This document shows positions 29,400 through 61,322 of a stretch of DNA of 64,000 nt, one piece after another. The notes below the pieces were generated by a model. It saw only the letters and a program-made list of their open reading frames with translations. It was not told the DNA's origin and searched no databases. The stretch covers positions 1,612,001 to 1,676,000 of the forward strand of contig NZ_AP022873.1 in the NCBI RefSeq assembly GCF_014701235.1. Direction: 5' to 3'. The position numbers were made by a program, and so were the translations under genes. This DNA comes from Dissulfurispira thermophila. GTDB taxonomy: Bacteria; Nitrospirota; Thermodesulfovibrionia; Thermodesulfovibrionales; Dissulfurispiraceae. Each line of letters opens with the position of its first letter. The first letter of the stretch is position 1.

Positions 29400-29472
29400 T
29401 AGGTTAAGGGTAAATGAGTGAATAACCCCTGATTATTATCATACCTTAACCGTAACCTTAACCTCAACCTTA
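29400..29472. repeat. Inverted hexamer-type repeat upstream of rplI
   Basis: GGTTAA on the left and repeated TTAACC/GTAACC units on the right, with a 6-bp period and partial complementarity. It lies between rplI and the methyltransferase gene and overlaps the stop of the latter. The same units recur near tRNA-Leu at 60248. Confidence 0.65.
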
Positions 29473-30291
29473 ATATATTCTCTGCCTCACAACCTCATAT
29501 AAACAAACAGATGCTGCCATTGCGACATTCAAGCTCTCAGCCTTGCCTAAAATTGGAATTTTCAGACCCTTTGCCCTTTTGAGCAACACCTCACTGACGC
29601 CATGGGCCTCATTACCAAAGGCAATAGCAACAGGTAATTTAAAATCAAATTCATAAATAGACATCTGCGCATGAACATCTGCTGCATATAATGAAATATT
29701 TTTCGACTCAATGAAATCAAAAAGGGTCTCTAATCCCGAATAAATAATTGGAATATTAAATAGGCTTCCTGCTGTTGCTCTTATTGCCTTTGGCATAAAG
29801 GCATCGCATGTGTTTGGAAGAATAATCACAGCATCAGCACCTGCCGCATCAGATACCCTGATAATTGTGCCAAGGTTTCCAGGGTCCTGAATACCATCGC
29901 AAACAACAAGAAAAGGAACTTCTTTAAAACTGATACCATCTAATCTCGCTATTTTACAAGACATAACCGCGGCAATCCCTTGAGGTGTCTCTGTATCACT
30001 AAGTTTATTCAAAACCTGCTCTGATACCCGAATAAAAATATCTCTTGGCGGTTGACATTTGATGCTCGATATTATCAGCCTTAAAAGTCTTTGTCCCTCC
30101 TTCTTGTTTGAAAATTCTTCTGTAAAAAACACCCTTTTTATCTCTACATGAGGAGATGCTACTGCCATTTCTATGAGGTGTGGTCCCTCTATAAAAAACG
30201 CCTCATGTCTGTATCTGGCGTATTTTTGCTTTATTTTTAATGCTTCCTTAATTATTGCATTTACAGGGCTTGTGATTGTTATAAATCTCAT
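29470..30291 (-). CDS. TrmH/SpoU-family RNA 2'-O-methyltransferase
   Basis: 273 aa. N-terminal substrate-binding region (AFFIEGPHLIEMAVAS) and a SPOUT domain: VVCDGIQDPGNLGTIIRVSD, VAIAFGNEAHGVSEVLLKRA and IPILGKAESLNVAMAASVCL. It uses SAM to methylate a ribose in rRNA or tRNA; target unknown. It overlaps the end of the site-2 protease gene by 4 bp, and RNase J is further upstream in the same unit. Confidence 0.92.
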   Translation of the reverse strand: MRFITITSPVNAIIKEALKIKQKYARYRHEAFFIEGPHLIEMAVASPHVEIKRVFFTEEFSNKKEGQRLLRLIISSIKCQPPRDIFIRVSEQVLNKLSDTETPQGIAAVMSCKIARLDGISFKEVPFLVVCDGIQDPGNLGTIIRVSDAAGADAVIILPNTCDAFMPKAIRATAGSLFNIPIIYSGLETLFDFIESKNISLYAADVHAQMSIYEFDFKLPVAIAFGNEAHGVSEVLLKRAKGLKIPILGKAESLNVAMAASVCLYEVVRQRIY

Positions 30292-38197: not shown

Positions 38198-38924
38198 TAA
38201 TCATTCCTGATATTTTCTCTATTGTTGTATAGTACTTTTTAAAAATTTCGACAAGTGCTGGTTTTGAAGGCTTGATCTGTCCATTTCTTAAAAGAAGCAA
38301 CTCTTCAAATACGTCAGAATCAGCAAATACACCCTGTATTGTCTTAATAACATCATGCCTCATAACAGGAGGCTCTTTACCTAAAAGGTAGATAATTGCC
38401 CTAAATAAAGGTATGCATCCTGTAAATGATTTTATAAGAAGTGTAGAAATGAGCTCTTTGTCACCACTACAACCAATATATCCCTGCCTAATACCTATAA
38501 GCTTAATCTTTATATCCCTTTCGCATTGCAATCGCAGATGTTCATGATTAATTTGCAGTTCTTTAAGTATATCCTCTCCATAAATAGTTTTATGTATCAA
38601 CCTGAAGTCATGAAATTCTATGGGAAACACATCAAGGGAGTTCTTTATATAATCAAGTGTCATAATTAAAGGAGCTGCAATCCTTTTTTTACCATACTTT
38701 TTCCCCAAAGGAGCAAGGAATTCCATAAAATCAAAGCTTATTTTACTGAGGACTATAACAGAGTTTATATCAGATGTCTTTTCATTAAAATCAGCCGTAA
38801 CAGCACTTCCAACTATATAGATAGAGTGTATATCCTGTTCATATCCTTTCAAGACAACCTCGACAAAAGGCCTTATTCTATTTGAGACAACAGGATTTAT
38901 TCCTTCGAGATTTATTGTTTTCAT
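38181..38924 (-). CDS. Degenerate nucleotidyltransferase-like protein
   Basis: 247 aa from ATG 38924 (AAAGGA upstream); the open frame extends seven codons further to a TTG. A GSAVTADFNEKTSDINSVIV segment resembles the GSx10DxD motif of nucleotidyltransferases but has DxN in place of DxD, so it may be inactive. The rest is helical with no recognised domain. Its first 60 bp are duplicated exactly at 39814-39873, just beyond the MntA-HepT pair. It is cotranscribed with HepT upstream and the TPM gene downstream. Confidence 0.7.
   Translation of the reverse strand: MKTINLEGINPVVSNRIRPFVEVVLKGYEQDIHSIYIVGSAVTADFNEKTSDINSVIVLSKISFDFMEFLAPLGKKYGKKRIAAPLIMTLDYIKNSLDVFPIEFHDFRLIHKTIYGEDILKELQINHEHLRLQCERDIKIKLIGIRQGYIGCSGDKELISTLLIKSFTGCIPLFRAIIYLLGKEPPVMRHDVIKTIQGVFADSDVFEELLLLRNGQIKPSKPALVEIFKKYYTTIEKISGMINELTS
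38865..38924. repeat. 60-bp direct repeat, copy inside the nucleotidyltransferase gene
   Basis: Exact 60-bp match to 39814-39873, same orientation, encoding the first 20 residues (MKTINLEGINPVVSNRIRPF). The segment between the copies holds hepT and mntA. Confidence 0.85.
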
Positions 38925-39780: not shown

Positions 39781-39813
39781 CAATAAATAGAACCGTCCCC
39801 TTTTCCCAGAGAT

Positions 39814-39873
39814 AAAAGGCCTTATTCTATTTGAGACAACAGGATTTATTCCTTCGAGATTTATTGTTTTCAT
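39814..39873 (-). pseudogene. Duplicate 5' end of the nucleotidyltransferase gene
   Basis: Exact 60-bp copy of 38865-38924. It begins with ATG (complement at 39871-39873) and encodes the first 20 residues, then the similarity stops at a GTCCCC-containing stretch. It is probably the original 5' end of the gene, with the MntA-HepT block inserted after it. Confidence 0.8.
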
Positions 39874-56989: not shown

Positions 56990-57009
56990 ATGTAAGTGCC
57001 TACTTACAT
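56990..57009. promoter_or_regulatory. TetR-type operator palindrome
   Basis: ATGTAAGT-GCCT-ACTTACAT: perfect 8-bp arms around a 4-bp centre, covering the end of the -10 box and start site of the TetR promoter. Typical size and layout for a TetR-family operator. Confidence 0.8.
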
Positions 57010-57036
57010 TATAAGGGAAACATACTCGCCTGTCAA
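57008..57036 (-). promoter_or_regulatory. Consensus sigma-70 promoter of the efflux operon
   Basis: Read on the minus strand: TTGACA (57036-57031), 17-bp spacer, TATAAT (57013-57008). Both hexamers match the consensus. The leader to the TetR ATG at 56969 is about 30 bp. Confidence 0.85.
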
Positions 57037-57045
57037 GAAAAAAAA

Positions 57046-57075
57046 TTGACTTACGCAAAAAGCACGGTTTATGAT
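57046..57075 (+). promoter_or_regulatory. Predicted promoter of the tup operon
   Basis: TTGACT (57046-57051), an 18-bp spacer and TATGAT (57070-57075). It diverges from the TetR promoter, with only 9 bp between the two -35 boxes. It argues against the TTG at 57046 being the tupA start. Confidence 0.6.
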
Positions 57076-57096
57076 TGTAGTAACAAGAGACAATAC

Positions 57097-57933
57097 ATGC
57101 TCAAAAGAAGTTTCATATTAGCACTGGTTGTATCGGCTTTTCTCGCCTCGGTAGTCTCCGCCGAGACCAGGATACGCTGTGCATCAACCACAAGCACACA
57201 GAATTCGGGATTGTTCGATTACATTCTTCCAATATTCGAGAAAAAGGCAGGCATTAAGGTAGATGTAGTTGCTGTTGGCACTGGCGCTGCCATAGAGATA
57301 GGCAAAAGGGGAGATGCCGATGTGGTTTTTGTCCACGCAAAGGAGCAGGAATTAAAGGCTGTTGAAGAAGGATATTTCGTGAACCGCCATGATGTCATGT
57401 ATAACGACTTCGTTATTATCGGTCCTGCAAATGATCCTTTGAAGATAAAAGGCATAAAGTCAGCAACAGAGGCTTTCAAAAAGATTGCAGAAAATAATTA
57501 TCCATTTGTTTCGAGAGGAGATAAATCAGGAACTCATACAAAGGAATTATCTCTCTGGAAGAAGGCAGGCATTGAGCCTAAAGGTCAGAAATGGTACCTT
57601 GAAGTGGGACAGGGCATGGAAAAGACCCAGAGGATTGCCAATGAAAAGCGGGCATATACACTGACAGACAGAGGCACATGGCTTGCTACAAAGGATAAGG
57701 ACAGGCTCGAGATGAAGATTATCCTTGAGGGTGAACCTGTATTGTTCAATCAGTATGGTGTGATGGCAGTAAATCCAGAGAAACATAAACATGTAAAATA
57801 CAGAGAGGCAATGGAATTCATAAACTGGCTCATATCAGAGGAAGGACAGCATACCATTGCATCCTTTAAGGATAAGCACGGAAATCAGTTGTTTATTCCG
57901 AATGCAAGAAGTGGTGTCCCCAAAAAATCGTAA
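57097..57933 (+). CDS. tupA: Tungstate-binding protein TupA
   Basis: 278 aa from ATG 57097, which begins a signal peptide (MLKRSFILALVVSAFLASVV); the longer frame from TTG 57046 runs through the promoter. Binding domain: RCASTTSTQNSGLFDYILPI, VVAVGTGAAIEIGKRGDADV, VFVHAKEQE, PFVSRGDKSGTHTKELSLWK and YTLTDRGTWLATKDKDRLEM. These match TupA/WtpA-like tungstate receptors. The last three codons lie in the GTCCCC palindrome. The operon continues with a MntA-HepT pair before tupB and tupC. Confidence 0.94.
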   Translation: MLKRSFILALVVSAFLASVVSAETRIRCASTTSTQNSGLFDYILPIFEKKAGIKVDVVAVGTGAAIEIGKRGDADVVFVHAKEQELKAVEEGYFVNRHDVMYNDFVIIGPANDPLKIKGIKSATEAFKKIAENNYPFVSRGDKSGTHTKELSLWKKAGIEPKGQKWYLEVGQGMEKTQRIANEKRAYTLTDRGTWLATKDKDRLEMKIILEGEPVLFNQYGVMAVNPEKHKHVKYREAMEFINWLISEEGQHTIASFKDKHGNQLFIPNARSGVPKKS

Positions 57934-57947
57934 GATTTTTGGGGACA
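57915..57947. repeat. GTCCCC palindrome, copy 1 (end of tupA)
   Basis: Arms TGTCCCCAAAAAATC and GATTTTTGGGGACA with loop GTAA and one unpaired A. 14 bp of the left arm and 11 bp of the right arm are identical to the copy inside tupC (59724-59752). It covers the tupA stop codon and might act as an intercistronic hairpin. Confidence 0.75.
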
Positions 57948-57976
57948 TCTTTACACGATATGTTAAAATAACCCTG

Positions 57977-58384
57977 ATGGATACTCAGGGCATACTATCA
58001 GGGATCAAGGCATTTCTTGACAATAGAATGGAGATATTACTTGCCTTTGTTTTTGGCTCGTTTACTGAAGAAAGGCTCACAGAGGAAAGCGATGTGGATG
58101 TAGCGATACTTTTCAAGGATAATCCTGACCTCTCCCTTCTGACTGAAATAATGGATGGCATATCAAAGATTACAGGACGAGAGACTGATGTAGTTGTTTT
58201 AAATAACGCCTCTCCGATAATAAAGATGCAGGTCTTAAAAAAGGGTCAGGTGGTAAAAAAGGCGAATCATAGCGTCTACAACGAGTTTTTTCTCCGGACA
58301 GTCAGAGAATATGATGACCTGAAGATGGTGAGAAAACAGCAGGAAGAAAACATACTCAAGGGAAGGCTTTATGTTAGAACCTGA
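57977..58384 (+). CDS. mntA: MntA-like nucleotidyltransferase antitoxin (tup operon copy)
   Basis: 135 aa from ATG 57977; the frame is open 40 codons upstream but that part overlaps tupA. Motif GSFTEERLTEESDVDVAILF with GS and DxD intact, and GRETDVVVLNNASPIIKMQV. Longer than the 39264 copy. It overlaps the hepT gene by 14 bp. Confidence 0.9.
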   Translation: MDTQGILSGIKAFLDNRMEILLAFVFGSFTEERLTEESDVDVAILFKDNPDLSLLTEIMDGISKITGRETDVVVLNNASPIIKMQVLKKGQVVKKANHSVYNEFFLRTVREYDDLKMVRKQQEENILKGRLYVRT

Positions 58385-58799
58385 TGTAATCCTTGCAAAG
58401 GTTGGAAATATCCAGAGGTGTCTGAGAAGGATCAGTGAAGTTACAGACAACGACCCTGATGCCCTCAATGAGATAGATAAACAGGATATATTTGTCTTGA
58501 ATCTGCAGAGGGCCATAGAGGCAACTATTGATATCGCAACTCATGTCATAGCCTCTGAAGGACTCGGGCTCGCCACAACTATAAAAGAAAACTTCAAGCT
58601 CCTGAGGGATGCGGGGATAATTGGCGATGAAGTCATGAAGAAAATGCAATCAATGGTTGGTTTCAGAAATATAGCCATCCATGACTATACGTCCATTGAT
58701 ACAGATATCCTGAAATCAATCCTCAAAAATAACCTGAAGGACATAGAAGAATTCTATACATTGATTCTCAAAAGATTTAATATCTGTAAGCAAAACTGA
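58371..58799 (+). CDS. hepT: HepT-like toxin RNase (tup operon copy)
   Basis: 142 aa, HEPN fold. RNase motif Rx4HxY intact as RNIAIHDY near residue 98. IFVLNLQRAIEATIDIATHV and MVGFRNIAIHDYTSIDTDIL are typical. It sits between the antitoxin gene and tupB with 2-bp and overlap spacing, so a toxin-antitoxin pair is embedded in the tungstate transport operon. Confidence 0.9.
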   Translation: MLEPDVILAKVGNIQRCLRRISEVTDNDPDALNEIDKQDIFVLNLQRAIEATIDIATHVIASEGLGLATTIKENFKLLRDAGIIGDEVMKKMQSMVGFRNIAIHDYTSIDTDILKSILKNNLKDIEEFYTLILKRFNICKQN

Positions 58800-58801
58800 T
58801 C

Positions 58802-59521
58802 ATGCATTCAATATTTCTGGGCTTTAAAGAGGCATTTCTTCTGATACTTAATCTTGATAGGGAATTGATGGACATCATATTTTTGTCTATCAGGGTCTCT
58901 GGTGCAGCACTCCTAATTTCCACTGTAATAGGACTTCCTATTGGTGCATTGTTCGGATTGAAGCGGATTCCGATGAAGACAATGCTCATCAGCATTTCAA
59001 ATACCTTCATGGGGCTTCCTCCTGTAGTTGTCGGTCTCTTCGTTTATATCCTGCTTTCAAGGAGTGGTCTACTCGGTCCTTTAGGATTGCTTTATACCCC
59101 TTCAGCAATGGTAATTGCACAGACAATCCTTGCCTTTCCCATTGTAGTATCCCTCTGCTCAACAGCCATTATAAACGTTGCCCCCATTATAAAACAGGCA
59201 TCGATGACACTCGGTGCAACACAATTTCAAACATCTCTCACAATTATAAAAGAGGCAAGATATGGGATAATATCAGGTATAGTTGCTGCATTTGGAAGAG
59301 TCATGGCAGAGGTCGGGGCAATACTGATTGTTGGAGGCAACATAGCAGGCTACACAAGGGTCATGACAACCACCATTGCACTTGAGACAGACAAGGGAAA
59401 CTTTGAACTTGCAATTGCACTCGGGATTATTCTTTTGATGCTCTCTCTTATTATTAATGCAATTGTCCATTCTATACAGAGGAGGGCAATATCAGGTGCA
59501 AGGAGAATTGATACAATATGA
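58802..59521 (+). CDS. tupB: Tungstate ABC transporter permease TupB
   Basis: 239 aa. Membrane permease with the EAA-type loop EVGAILIVGGNIAGYTRVMT and helices LISTVIGLPIGALFGL, ISNTFMGLPPVVVGLFVYIL and LAFPIVVSLCSTAIINV. It follows hepT by 2 bp and overlaps tupC by 4 bp (ATGA). Confidence 0.94.
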   Translation: MHSIFLGFKEAFLLILNLDRELMDIIFLSIRVSGAALLISTVIGLPIGALFGLKRIPMKTMLISISNTFMGLPPVVVGLFVYILLSRSGLLGPLGLLYTPSAMVIAQTILAFPIVVSLCSTAIINVAPIIKQASMTLGATQFQTSLTIIKEARYGIISGIVAAFGRVMAEVGAILIVGGNIAGYTRVMTTTIALETDKGNFELAIALGIILLMLSLIINAIVHSIQRRAISGARRIDTI

Positions 59522-60207
59522 GTCTCGTCTTGAAGGTGTCTAACATATCAAAGAGTTATAATGGAAAACTTGTCCTGAAGGATTGTTCCTATTGTTTTGA
59601 TATGGGTGGGATATATGTTTTAATGGGAGCAAACGGAAGTGGTAAATCCACATTTTTGAGGATATGTGCACTCCTTGAAGAGCCTGACAGAGGAGAAGTC
59701 AATTATCTATCAAGAGGCAAGGGGTCCCCAAAAAATCCCATGATTTTTGGGGGTAATAGTAGCGTGATTAAAAAGGACATAAACCTCAGACGAAGGATAA
59801 CCCTTGTGCTTCCAGGGATAGGCATATTCAATACAACTGTTTTCAATAATGTAGCATATGGACTCAGGATAAGGGGATTAAAATCAAGAGAGATAAGAGA
59901 CAGGGTTGATAGGGTGCTCGATTTTGTCGGTCTGGCGCATAAAAGAAATCAGAATGCCCTCACCCTTTCCAGTGGCGAAATGCAGCGACTCGGTATCGCA
60001 AGGGCAATAGTTATAGAACCCGAGATACTTTTTCTTGATGAACCGACAGCATCTGTCGATAAGGAAAATACTGAAATCATAGAGCGGATTATTCTGGACA
60101 TGAAATCAGTGTCCCCCATTATTATTACCACCCATGACATGACCCAGGCAGAGAGACTCGCAGACAGCATATTGACTATGTCTGAAGGTAGGATTACTCG
60201 TGCTTAA
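59518..60207 (+). CDS. tupC: Tungstate ABC transporter ATPase TupC
   Basis: 229 aa. Walker A MGANGSGKSTFLRICALLEE near residue 38, signature ALTLSSGEMQRLGIARAI (Gly-to-Ser in LSGGE), Walker B EILFLDEPTASVD and H-loop IITTHDMTQAERLADS. Between the first strand pair and the Q-loop, residues about 65-85 (RGKGSPKNPMIFGGNSSVIK) are encoded by a palindrome also found at the end of tupA, so they look like an insertion. The Q-loop glutamine is not obvious. Confidence 0.92.
   Translation: MSLVLKVSNISKSYNGKLVLKDCSYCFDMGGIYVLMGANGSGKSTFLRICALLEEPDRGEVNYLSRGKGSPKNPMIFGGNSSVIKKDINLRRRITLVLPGIGIFNTTVFNNVAYGLRIRGLKSREIRDRVDRVLDFVGLAHKRNQNALTLSSGEMQRLGIARAIVIEPEILFLDEPTASVDKENTEIIERIILDMKSVSPIIITTHDMTQAERLADSILTMSEGRITRA
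59724..59752. repeat. GTCCCC palindrome, copy 2 (inside tupC)
   Basis: Left arm GTCCCCAAAAAATC and right arm GATTTTTGGGG with loop CCAT. The arms are identical to copy 1; only the loop differs. In-frame within the ATPase gene. Confidence 0.75.
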
Positions 60208-60247
60208 GTTGCACTTTCTACCTGTTTTTTAGTATCTTATCTAAGTA

Positions 60248-60320
60248 AAAGGTTAAGGTTAAGGCTAAGGTTGAGGAATAATTAGTTTTTTCTAAACCTT
60301 AACCTCAACCTTAACCTGAT
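60248..60320. repeat. Inverted hexamer-type repeat before tRNA-Leu
   Basis: AGGTTA/AGGCTA/AGGTTG units on the left and CCTTAA/CCTCAA units on the right, in opposite orientation with partial complementarity and an A/T loop. Very like the element at 29400-29472. A further GGTTAAGG run appears before galU. Confidence 0.7.
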
Positions 60321-60327
60321 TTGTTTT

Positions 60328-60415
60328 GCCGGAGTGGCGGAATTGGTAGACGCAAGGGATTTAAAATCCCTCGGGTCTCTGACCTGTACGAGTTCGAGTC
60401 TCGTCTCCGGCACCA
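60328..60415 (+). tRNA. tRNA-Leu(TAA)
   Basis: 88-nt class II tRNA. Acceptor GCCGGAG pairs with CTCCGGC; D-arm TGGCGGAATTGGTAGACGC; anticodon loop TTTAAAA, anticodon TAA (leucine, UUA); variable arm CGGGTCTCTGACCTG; T-arm GAGTTCGAGTCTC; discriminator A and encoded CCA. Confidence 0.96.
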
Positions 60416-60449
60416 CAAGAAGAAGGAGGTTAAGGTAAAGGTTTTTACT

Positions 60450-61322
60450 ATGAAAACATCTATTAAAAAGGCTATCCTTCCGGCTGCAGGTTTAGGCACA
60501 AGGTTTTTGCCAGCTACAAAGGCATCTCCAAAAGAAATGATGCCAATAGTTGATAAACCATTAATACAGTATGCAGTGGAAGAGTCTTTGTCATGCGGCA
60601 TAAAAGACTTCATTATTATTACGGGTAAATATAAAAGGACTATAGAAGACCACTTTGATACTTCATACAGATTGGAAGAGAAATTAAAGGCATCTGGCAA
60701 AGATAAAATGCTGCAGGAATTAAATAAACTCAATAACATCAATTTAGCATATATACGGCAGAGAGCCCCACTTGGTCTTGGTCATGCAATACTGTGTGCA
60801 AAGCCATTTGTTAAAGATGAGCCGTTTGCAGTTATCTTAAGTGATGATGTTATAGACCCTGAATACCCCTTACTAAAAGAAATGATTAAGGTTTATGAAA
60901 AAAAGAAATGCCCAATTATTGCATTAGAAGAGGTCCCGATGTCAGAAGTACATCGTTATGGTGTTATAGATGGCAGACTTGAAGGGGATATATACAAAAT
61001 AAAGAATATGGTTGAAAAACCCACCCCTGACAAAGCCCCTTCAAGCCTGGCTATAATAGGAAGGTATATACTGACACCCGAAATATTCAAGATGCTCGAA
61101 GAACAGGCTCCCGGTGCAGGAGGCGAGATACAGCTTACCGATGCCCTTAGAAAACTCGTAAAAAAGACACCAATATATGGTTATCTCATAAGAGGCAGGC
61201 GTTATGATGCAGGCGATAAATTGGGTTATTTAAAAGCAACTGTTGATTTTGCCCTTAGAAATAAGGAGTTATCAGAGGGCTTCAAGAACTATCTAATTGA
61301 TAAAGTAAAATCTCTAACATGA
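60450..61322 (+). CDS. galU: UTP-glucose-1-phosphate uridylyltransferase
   Basis: 290 aa. Start set at ATG 60450 because family sequence begins there (KKAILPAAGLGTRFLPATKA); the longer frame runs back over the tRNA. SPKEMMPIVDKPLIQYAVEE, GLGHAILCAKPFVKDEPFAV and ILSDDVIDPEYPLL are typical. Makes UDP-glucose for glycans and envelope polymers. A GGAGG lies 20 bp upstream, within GGTTAAGG-type repeat sequence. Overlaps the hsp20 gene by 4 bp. Confidence 0.95.
   Translation: MKTSIKKAILPAAGLGTRFLPATKASPKEMMPIVDKPLIQYAVEESLSCGIKDFIIITGKYKRTIEDHFDTSYRLEEKLKASGKDKMLQELNKLNNINLAYIRQRAPLGLGHAILCAKPFVKDEPFAVILSDDVIDPEYPLLKEMIKVYEKKKCPIIALEEVPMSEVHRYGVIDGRLEGDIYKIKNMVEKPTPDKAPSSLAIIGRYILTPEIFKMLEEQAPGAGGEIQLTDALRKLVKKTPIYGYLIRGRRYDAGDKLGYLKATVDFALRNKELSEGFKNYLIDKVKSLT

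Follow-up and report, generated by a model that had tools for sequence, protein, structure and literature searches.

The window analysed here is a stretch of 64,000 nucleotides (nt) from Dissulfurispira thermophila, spanning genome positions 1612001-1676000 in a single contig of 2,370,875 bases. It carries genes for a tungstate ATP-binding cassette (ABC) transporter, two of which, tupA and tupC, each hold a copy of the same short palindromic element. All three genes lie on the + strand, and families were named with NCBIfam and Pfam. tupA (57100..57933) encodes the substrate-binding protein (NF041772, E 2.8e-79) and tupB (58802..59521) the permease (NF041773, E 2.9e-49); the adjoining tupC (59518..60207) encodes the ATPase (PF00005, E 5e-25; NF041774, E 3.1e-34). 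Each of the three NCBIfam matches falls below its curated cut-off. The nearest relatives of TupA in the named genome collection are Nitrospirae and Thermodesulfovibrionales metagenome-assembled genomes.

Two palindromes in the tup genes

Copy 1 of the palindrome consists of the left arm GTCCCCAAAAAATC at 57916-57929, the loop GTAA at 57930-57933 and the right arm GATTTTTGGGG at 57934-57944. In copy 2, the left arm occupies 59724-59737, the loop CCAT 59738-59741 and the right arm 59742-59752. The initial annotation had described these arms, loops and positions (57916-57944 with GTAA; 59724-59752 with CCAT) correctly, and its statement that the arms occur exactly twice holds for the window; in the whole genome, the left arm is found 14 times. 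The two copies are 88% identical over 32 nt, and both carry six A in the left arm and five T in the right, so that the stem arms are offset by one base; in consensus copies there are six of each. A covariance model of the palindrome (R1), built on 13 exact two-arm copies and comprising 35 positions and 12 pairs, recovers copy 1 at the 3' end of tupA (57913..57947, + strand; genome 1669913-1669947; 51.4 bits, E 4.1e-11) and copy 2 within tupC (59721..59755, + strand; genome 1671721-1671755; 56.0 bits, E 1.8e-12). A scan of 57000-60500 with Rfam gave a tRNA as its sole match.

One copy had been placed over the stop codon of tupA, and the TAA at 57931-57933 does lie in the loop of copy 1. TupA orthologues mostly finish right after the residues FIPNAK, at the equivalent of residue 270, and comparison with the orthologues in relatives assigns seven extra codons (SGVPKKS) and the stop (57910..57933, + strand) to the element. 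tupA reads the palindrome in the single frame that the consensus loop, GTAA, closes. Judged from the sequence, the stop codon of tupA is replaced by the TAA of the element's loop.

The other copy had been proposed to be translated within TupC, and tupC indeed reads through it. Copy 2 sits in a 42-nt in-frame insertion (59713..59754, + strand, with edges uncertain by a few bases) that encodes residues 66-79, RGKGSPKNPMIFGG; the peptide across the insert reads ...LSRGKGSPKNPMIFGGNSSV... The window protein was aligned with 29 orthologues taken from the whole genomes of relatives, which share 46-68% identity with it (local alignment, insert counted). The 14 residues that follow ...EVNYLS are missing in 29 of 29; the initial annotation had proposed such an alignment to see whether relatives lack residues about 65-85. 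At the DNA level, tupC of two relatives from the same genus reads TATCTCTCCGGCAGT..., without the palindrome. A second set of 65 tupC matches from named genomes agrees on the missing insert, with the exceptions of L210, L193, L219, L188 and L213. In the predicted structure of TupC (mean predicted local distance difference test score, pLDDT, 91), the insert forms a low-confidence loop between two strands, and residues 73-79 have pLDDT values below 50.

The neighbourhood contains further features. Between tupA and tupB, at 57973-58799, lie a nucleotidyltransferase (Polbeta, PF18765) and a HepT-like protein (PF01934) in the typical layout of an MntA/HepT toxin-antitoxin system. Word-like inverted and direct repeats (AGGTTAAGGTTAAGG... 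/ CCTTAACCTCAACCTTAACC) are found at 60250-60314 and 29429-29473, one pair of which stands beside a tRNA gene (60328-60412). In addition, a 63-nt direct repeat with 98% identity occurs at 38862-38924 and 39811-39873, about 950 bases apart.

A dispersed family in the genome and among relatives

The initial annotation had advised a search of the genome for the arms, and such a search yielded dozens of further copies. Neither this search nor the alignment of TupC proteins refuted its reading. The left 14-nt arm has 14 exact copies distributed over both strands; the pattern read backwards, used as a control, has none. The inverse arm follows in 13 of the 14. The remaining 14-mer, at genome 1676125 (L010) just past the window, has no partner arm and was counted as chance. 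With the covariance model, 53 distinct genome sites were found at E<=1e-3 and 67 up to E 10, the best at E 6e-14. The family consensus, GGGGTCCCCAAAAAATCGYAAGATTTTTTGGGGTGCAGAA, comprises a 12-bp stem and a loop of about 4 nt within a 35-nt core. Its sequence is open in five of the six reading frames, and a GCAA loop in place of GTAA opens the sixth as well.

The stem stays paired in variants, for example CCCCAGAAAATC/GATTTTCTGGGG and AAAAAGTC/GACTTTTT. When compensatory cells were compared with 500 re-pairings of the arms, the 35-nt copies gave 15 (shuffle mean 4.8, maximum 11) and the 34-nt copies 20 (shuffle mean 8.7, maximum 17). Because subfamilies are copied as units, these compensatory changes show that the arms are paired and not, by themselves, that structure is under selection. 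Four copies, at genome 2242080, 2247517, 133746 and 1746157 (L084, L085, L102 and L106), share identical 45-nt flanks, which suggests the duplication of a larger repeat or element that holds the palindrome. Simple-word repeats (CTGAAGGCTGAAGG, GAACTGTGAACTGT) border several copies elsewhere.

Among relatives, the distribution is patchy. Matches at E<=1e-5 were obtained in 28 of 100 relatives searched. Counted from the matches listed, copy numbers in the genus are 50, 7, 2 and 0, and scattered genera outside it reach 43, 42, 65 and 33. In a class-wide sample, 14 of 120 genomes had matches at E<=1e-7. In two genomes, G030 (L315-L334) and G045 (L335-L343), the core sits in the middle of longer repeats, whose flanks are nearly identical but differ from one genome to the other; in the sister-genus genome G005, the flanks of the core are unrelated. 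The core is therefore the shared unit. The initial annotation had taken the palindrome for a small mobile element, a view supported by orthologous sites with and without the element and by the uneven copy number within one genus (50/7/2/0).

Copies inside other genes and repeated use of loops

The context of each copy was judged from the longest stop-to-stop frame on the genome stretches around it. By this measure, frames of 180 amino acids (aa) or more enclose 32 of the 53 sites found at E<=1e-3, a figure that is an upper limit for intragenic copies. Within these long open reading frames (ORFs), 20 copies are in the sense and 12 in the antisense orientation, a difference that is not significant. 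Inserts were then compared with empty sites through a chimeric query of insert-spanning pieces, which was searched against the two closest congeneric genomes and one sister-genus genome, and the matching stretches were aligned.

Relative to at least one relative, in-frame gains are present in a NuoG-like oxidoreductase (14 aa), GlnE (13 aa), Mfd (two inserts, of 17 and 13 aa), trigger factor (tig, 13 aa), PheT (about 13), an M16 peptidase (14 aa) and RimP (18 aa). The same holds for a ComEC-like protein (two), a histidine kinase, a CbiG-CbiH fusion, a Tll0287-domain kinase and a DUF512 radical SAM protein. At the codon level, the net gain is 39 or 42 nt in most clean cases. With five or six of six frames open and a net insert of this size, an insertion into a gene can keep the frame and add about 13-14 mostly polar residues. 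The palindrome is also found in CarB, MnmA, the CCA-adding enzyme, a prepilin peptidase and a DUF1015 protein, in loops that vary in length among relatives. Several long ORFs across copies, among them those at 2281982, 2287490, 468668, 924979 and 143505, found no relative among the compared loci and are left out of the host genes. The many in-frame copies inside other genes match what had been supposed from the tupC copy, namely that the element tolerates being in a coding frame.

Certain loops have been used more than once. In mfd of G005, the palindrome occupies the same loop as in D. thermophila but is translated in another frame (SGSPKNREIFWGD versus GVQKKSSDFLG), and this difference in frame argues for independent insertions. 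In tupC, four of the exceptional loci mentioned above (L210, L193, L219 and L188) carry a longer in-frame insert at the same site, formed by a palindromic repeat unrelated to the present family, of the type CCCCCCTTATCAAGGGGGG and then AATTAAAGGGGGG; in L213, the loop there is longer and unrelated. The mfd and tupC cases suggest that the loops which take up such sequences are limited in number and do so repeatedly. Tolerance together with selection explains this repeated use without targeting. That some protein loops, beyond merely tolerating short palindromes, actually serve as targets for their insertion is the less likely reading and on balance an unlikely one. If it were true, a DNA-hairpin process would seed new loop peptides in housekeeping proteins across Thermodesulfovibrionia.

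Explanations, known systems and significance

Both palindromes very probably belong to one family of short (~35-42 nt) non-autonomous repeats that has spread by insertion through the genome and parts of the class. This explanation builds on what is observed, namely the family, its in-frame intragenic copies, the empty sites in relatives and the re-use of loops. Under it, the family would spread by insertion, and selection would keep those insertions that fall in tolerant surface loops or at gene ends; the outcome would be an intragenic load in housekeeping genes resembling that left by the palindromic elements of Rickettsia. Copies would move by a transposition-like process, insertions would be near neutral, and the insert-carrying proteins would presumably all be made and functional. 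Chance inverted repeats or recent local duplications, with the residues as ordinary parts of TupA and TupC, could be entertained as long as only the two copies seen in the initial annotation were in view; the dozens of dispersed copies, with E down to 6e-14, and the lack of the residues in orthologues refute this idea and make it vanishingly improbable.

Several observations weigh against spread by insertion, or narrow it. The count of 32 of 53 includes some ORFs that are N-terminal or lack homology confirmation. For carB, mnmA, the CCA enzyme and the prepilin peptidase, the host loops vary in length anyway, and the alignments are therefore ambiguous. Part of the core's spread may have been as a passenger in longer repeats, as in G030 and G045. 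The copies showed no target-site duplication at a fixed offset. Words common to both flanks are slightly longer than in shuffled pairs (4.67 versus 3.98, above all 300 shuffles), an excess that arises partly from simple-sequence surroundings. Nor does the genome offer an evident mobiliser. Its sole Y1 transposase gene (PF01797, IS200/RAYT-like), which encodes a protein of 290 aa, has no palindrome beside it, and its 24-nt terminal repeats differ from the palindrome. Across 100 genomes, the numbers of Y1 genes and palindromes are uncorrelated (Spearman -0.04, p 0.70); a Y1 gene is missing from five of the 15 genomes rich in copies, though these five are drafts.

Two further explanations concern what the hairpin does and what moves it. 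Selection could keep the copies at useful places as functional RNA hairpins, in the role of terminators, attenuators or mRNA stabilisers, in which case the tupA copy would end the tupA message and the tupC copy would be incidental. The position of the tupA copy exactly at the gene end, common for repetitive extragenic palindromic elements (REPs) (PMC3733652), and the compensatory changes that maintain the stem would suit such a role. However, long ORFs hold over half of the copies, in either orientation (20 sense, 12 antisense), the orthologous sites in relatives are empty, copy number is patchy, and the copying of subfamilies as units would yield compensatory changes too; this explanation is very unlikely. 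Alternatively, the family could be a REP proper, moved by the genome's own REP-associated tyrosine transposase (RAYT), that is, its Y1 (HUH) transposase. The family fits in its size, number of copies and hairpin form, the genome has one Y1_Tnp gene, and GGGGTC starts both the palindrome and the 24-nt terminal repeat of that gene. Yet no GTAG or CGTC tag stands at a fixed place: of 57 copies, five have GTAG near the 3' side and one has it near the 5' side, none has CGTC, and two have its complement GACG. The Y1 gene has no flanking palindromes, its number does not follow that of the copies, and no replication-strand bias was seen with halves split at the contig midpoint (8/11 versus 13/21). Three Y1 stretches looked at in relatives likewise had no palindrome beside them. 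A REP of this kind is unlikely, and with neither flanking copies nor a copy-number correlation, the Y1 transposase was rejected as the mobiliser. The Y1 gene itself (L021:984-1907) has a 24-nt terminal inverted repeat, GGGGTCAGGTCTTGCTTTTTGCTA, and lies at the 3' end of an ORF whose product, judged by eye, resembles a universal-stress-type protein.

Spread of a non-autonomous palindrome by insertion can be set beside several known systems. GTAG/CGTC REPs are stem-loops of 20-40 bp, present in tens of copies, some of them inside genes, including repair genes, in several bacteria; intragenic REPs sometimes stand at about the same site in two species, as in recB of Xanthomonas, and REP ends often give a stop codon (Di Nocera et al., 2013, PMC3733652). 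The present family is alike in forming a 20-40 nt stem-loop in tens of copies, with its 35-nt core and 12-bp stem. It differs in that the stop codon comes from the loop and not from the tag, and in that a larger share of copies is intragenic (32/53 in ORFs of at least 180 aa, as an upper limit), so that it is not predominantly extragenic. Furthermore, no RAYT gene is flanked by the repeat, and the Y1 gene is bordered by an unrelated terminal inverted repeat. Bacterial miniature inverted-repeat transposable elements (ERIC, NEMIS/Correia, YPAL) measure about 70-300 bp and have terminal inverted repeats and usually target duplications (PMC2229807). They too are non-autonomous repeats, some of which are translated in fusion with genes, but the D. 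thermophila copies show no duplication at a constant offset, with a weak excess of words shared by the two flanks, and no cognate transposase was found.

The closest parallel is offered by Rickettsia palindromic elements (RPEs; Ogata et al., 2000, 2002). These are reported as palindromic repeats of about 105-150 bp that lie in-frame in many conserved genes of reduced intracellular alphaproteobacteria; RPE-4 and RPE-6 are REP-like, and one tested product, guanylate kinase, was still active (PMC2229807, PMC10969869). Both families place in-frame palindromic inserts in many unrelated conserved protein genes whose homologues elsewhere lack them. Both are also dispersed in many copies per genome, here at 53 sites at E<=1e-3, and, as a further likeness, no mobiliser is tied to the present family. 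Compared by description, the present elements differ in their size (35-42 nt, with net inserts mostly of 39-42 nt) and in their Nitrospirota genome. The family works like RPEs but, with its inserts below RPE length, is not filed as one. Protein-coding palindromic repeats are also reported from Wolbachia (Ogata et al., 2005, via PMC2229807), a second lineage with coding palindromes, likened here by description and differing in being an endosymbiont. The present family is untagged and REP-like and behaves like RPEs; it is not assigned to any named family.

Literature searches within an open-access library gave no relevant paper on such elements in Nitrospirota, and the words Nitrospira and Thermodesulfovibrio are absent from the main text of PMC3733652. 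Elements of this kind are known; the family, the phylum and the extent of the intragenic load are new, to judge from what could be checked. For annotation, caution is advisable, as residues of the form GVPKKSxDFLG or GSPKNxxIFWGA in these proteins derive from the repeat and not from the protein family. The best-known instance of heavy in-frame palindromic decoration of housekeeping proteins is that in Rickettsia, which is linked to the reduced genome of an intracellular bacterium; REP-borne cases are scattered among other bacteria. With its named, conserved host genes and the empty sites in congeneric species, this complete genome from Nitrospirota provides a clean system for studying both the movement of such repeats and the tolerance of essential proteins to inserts.
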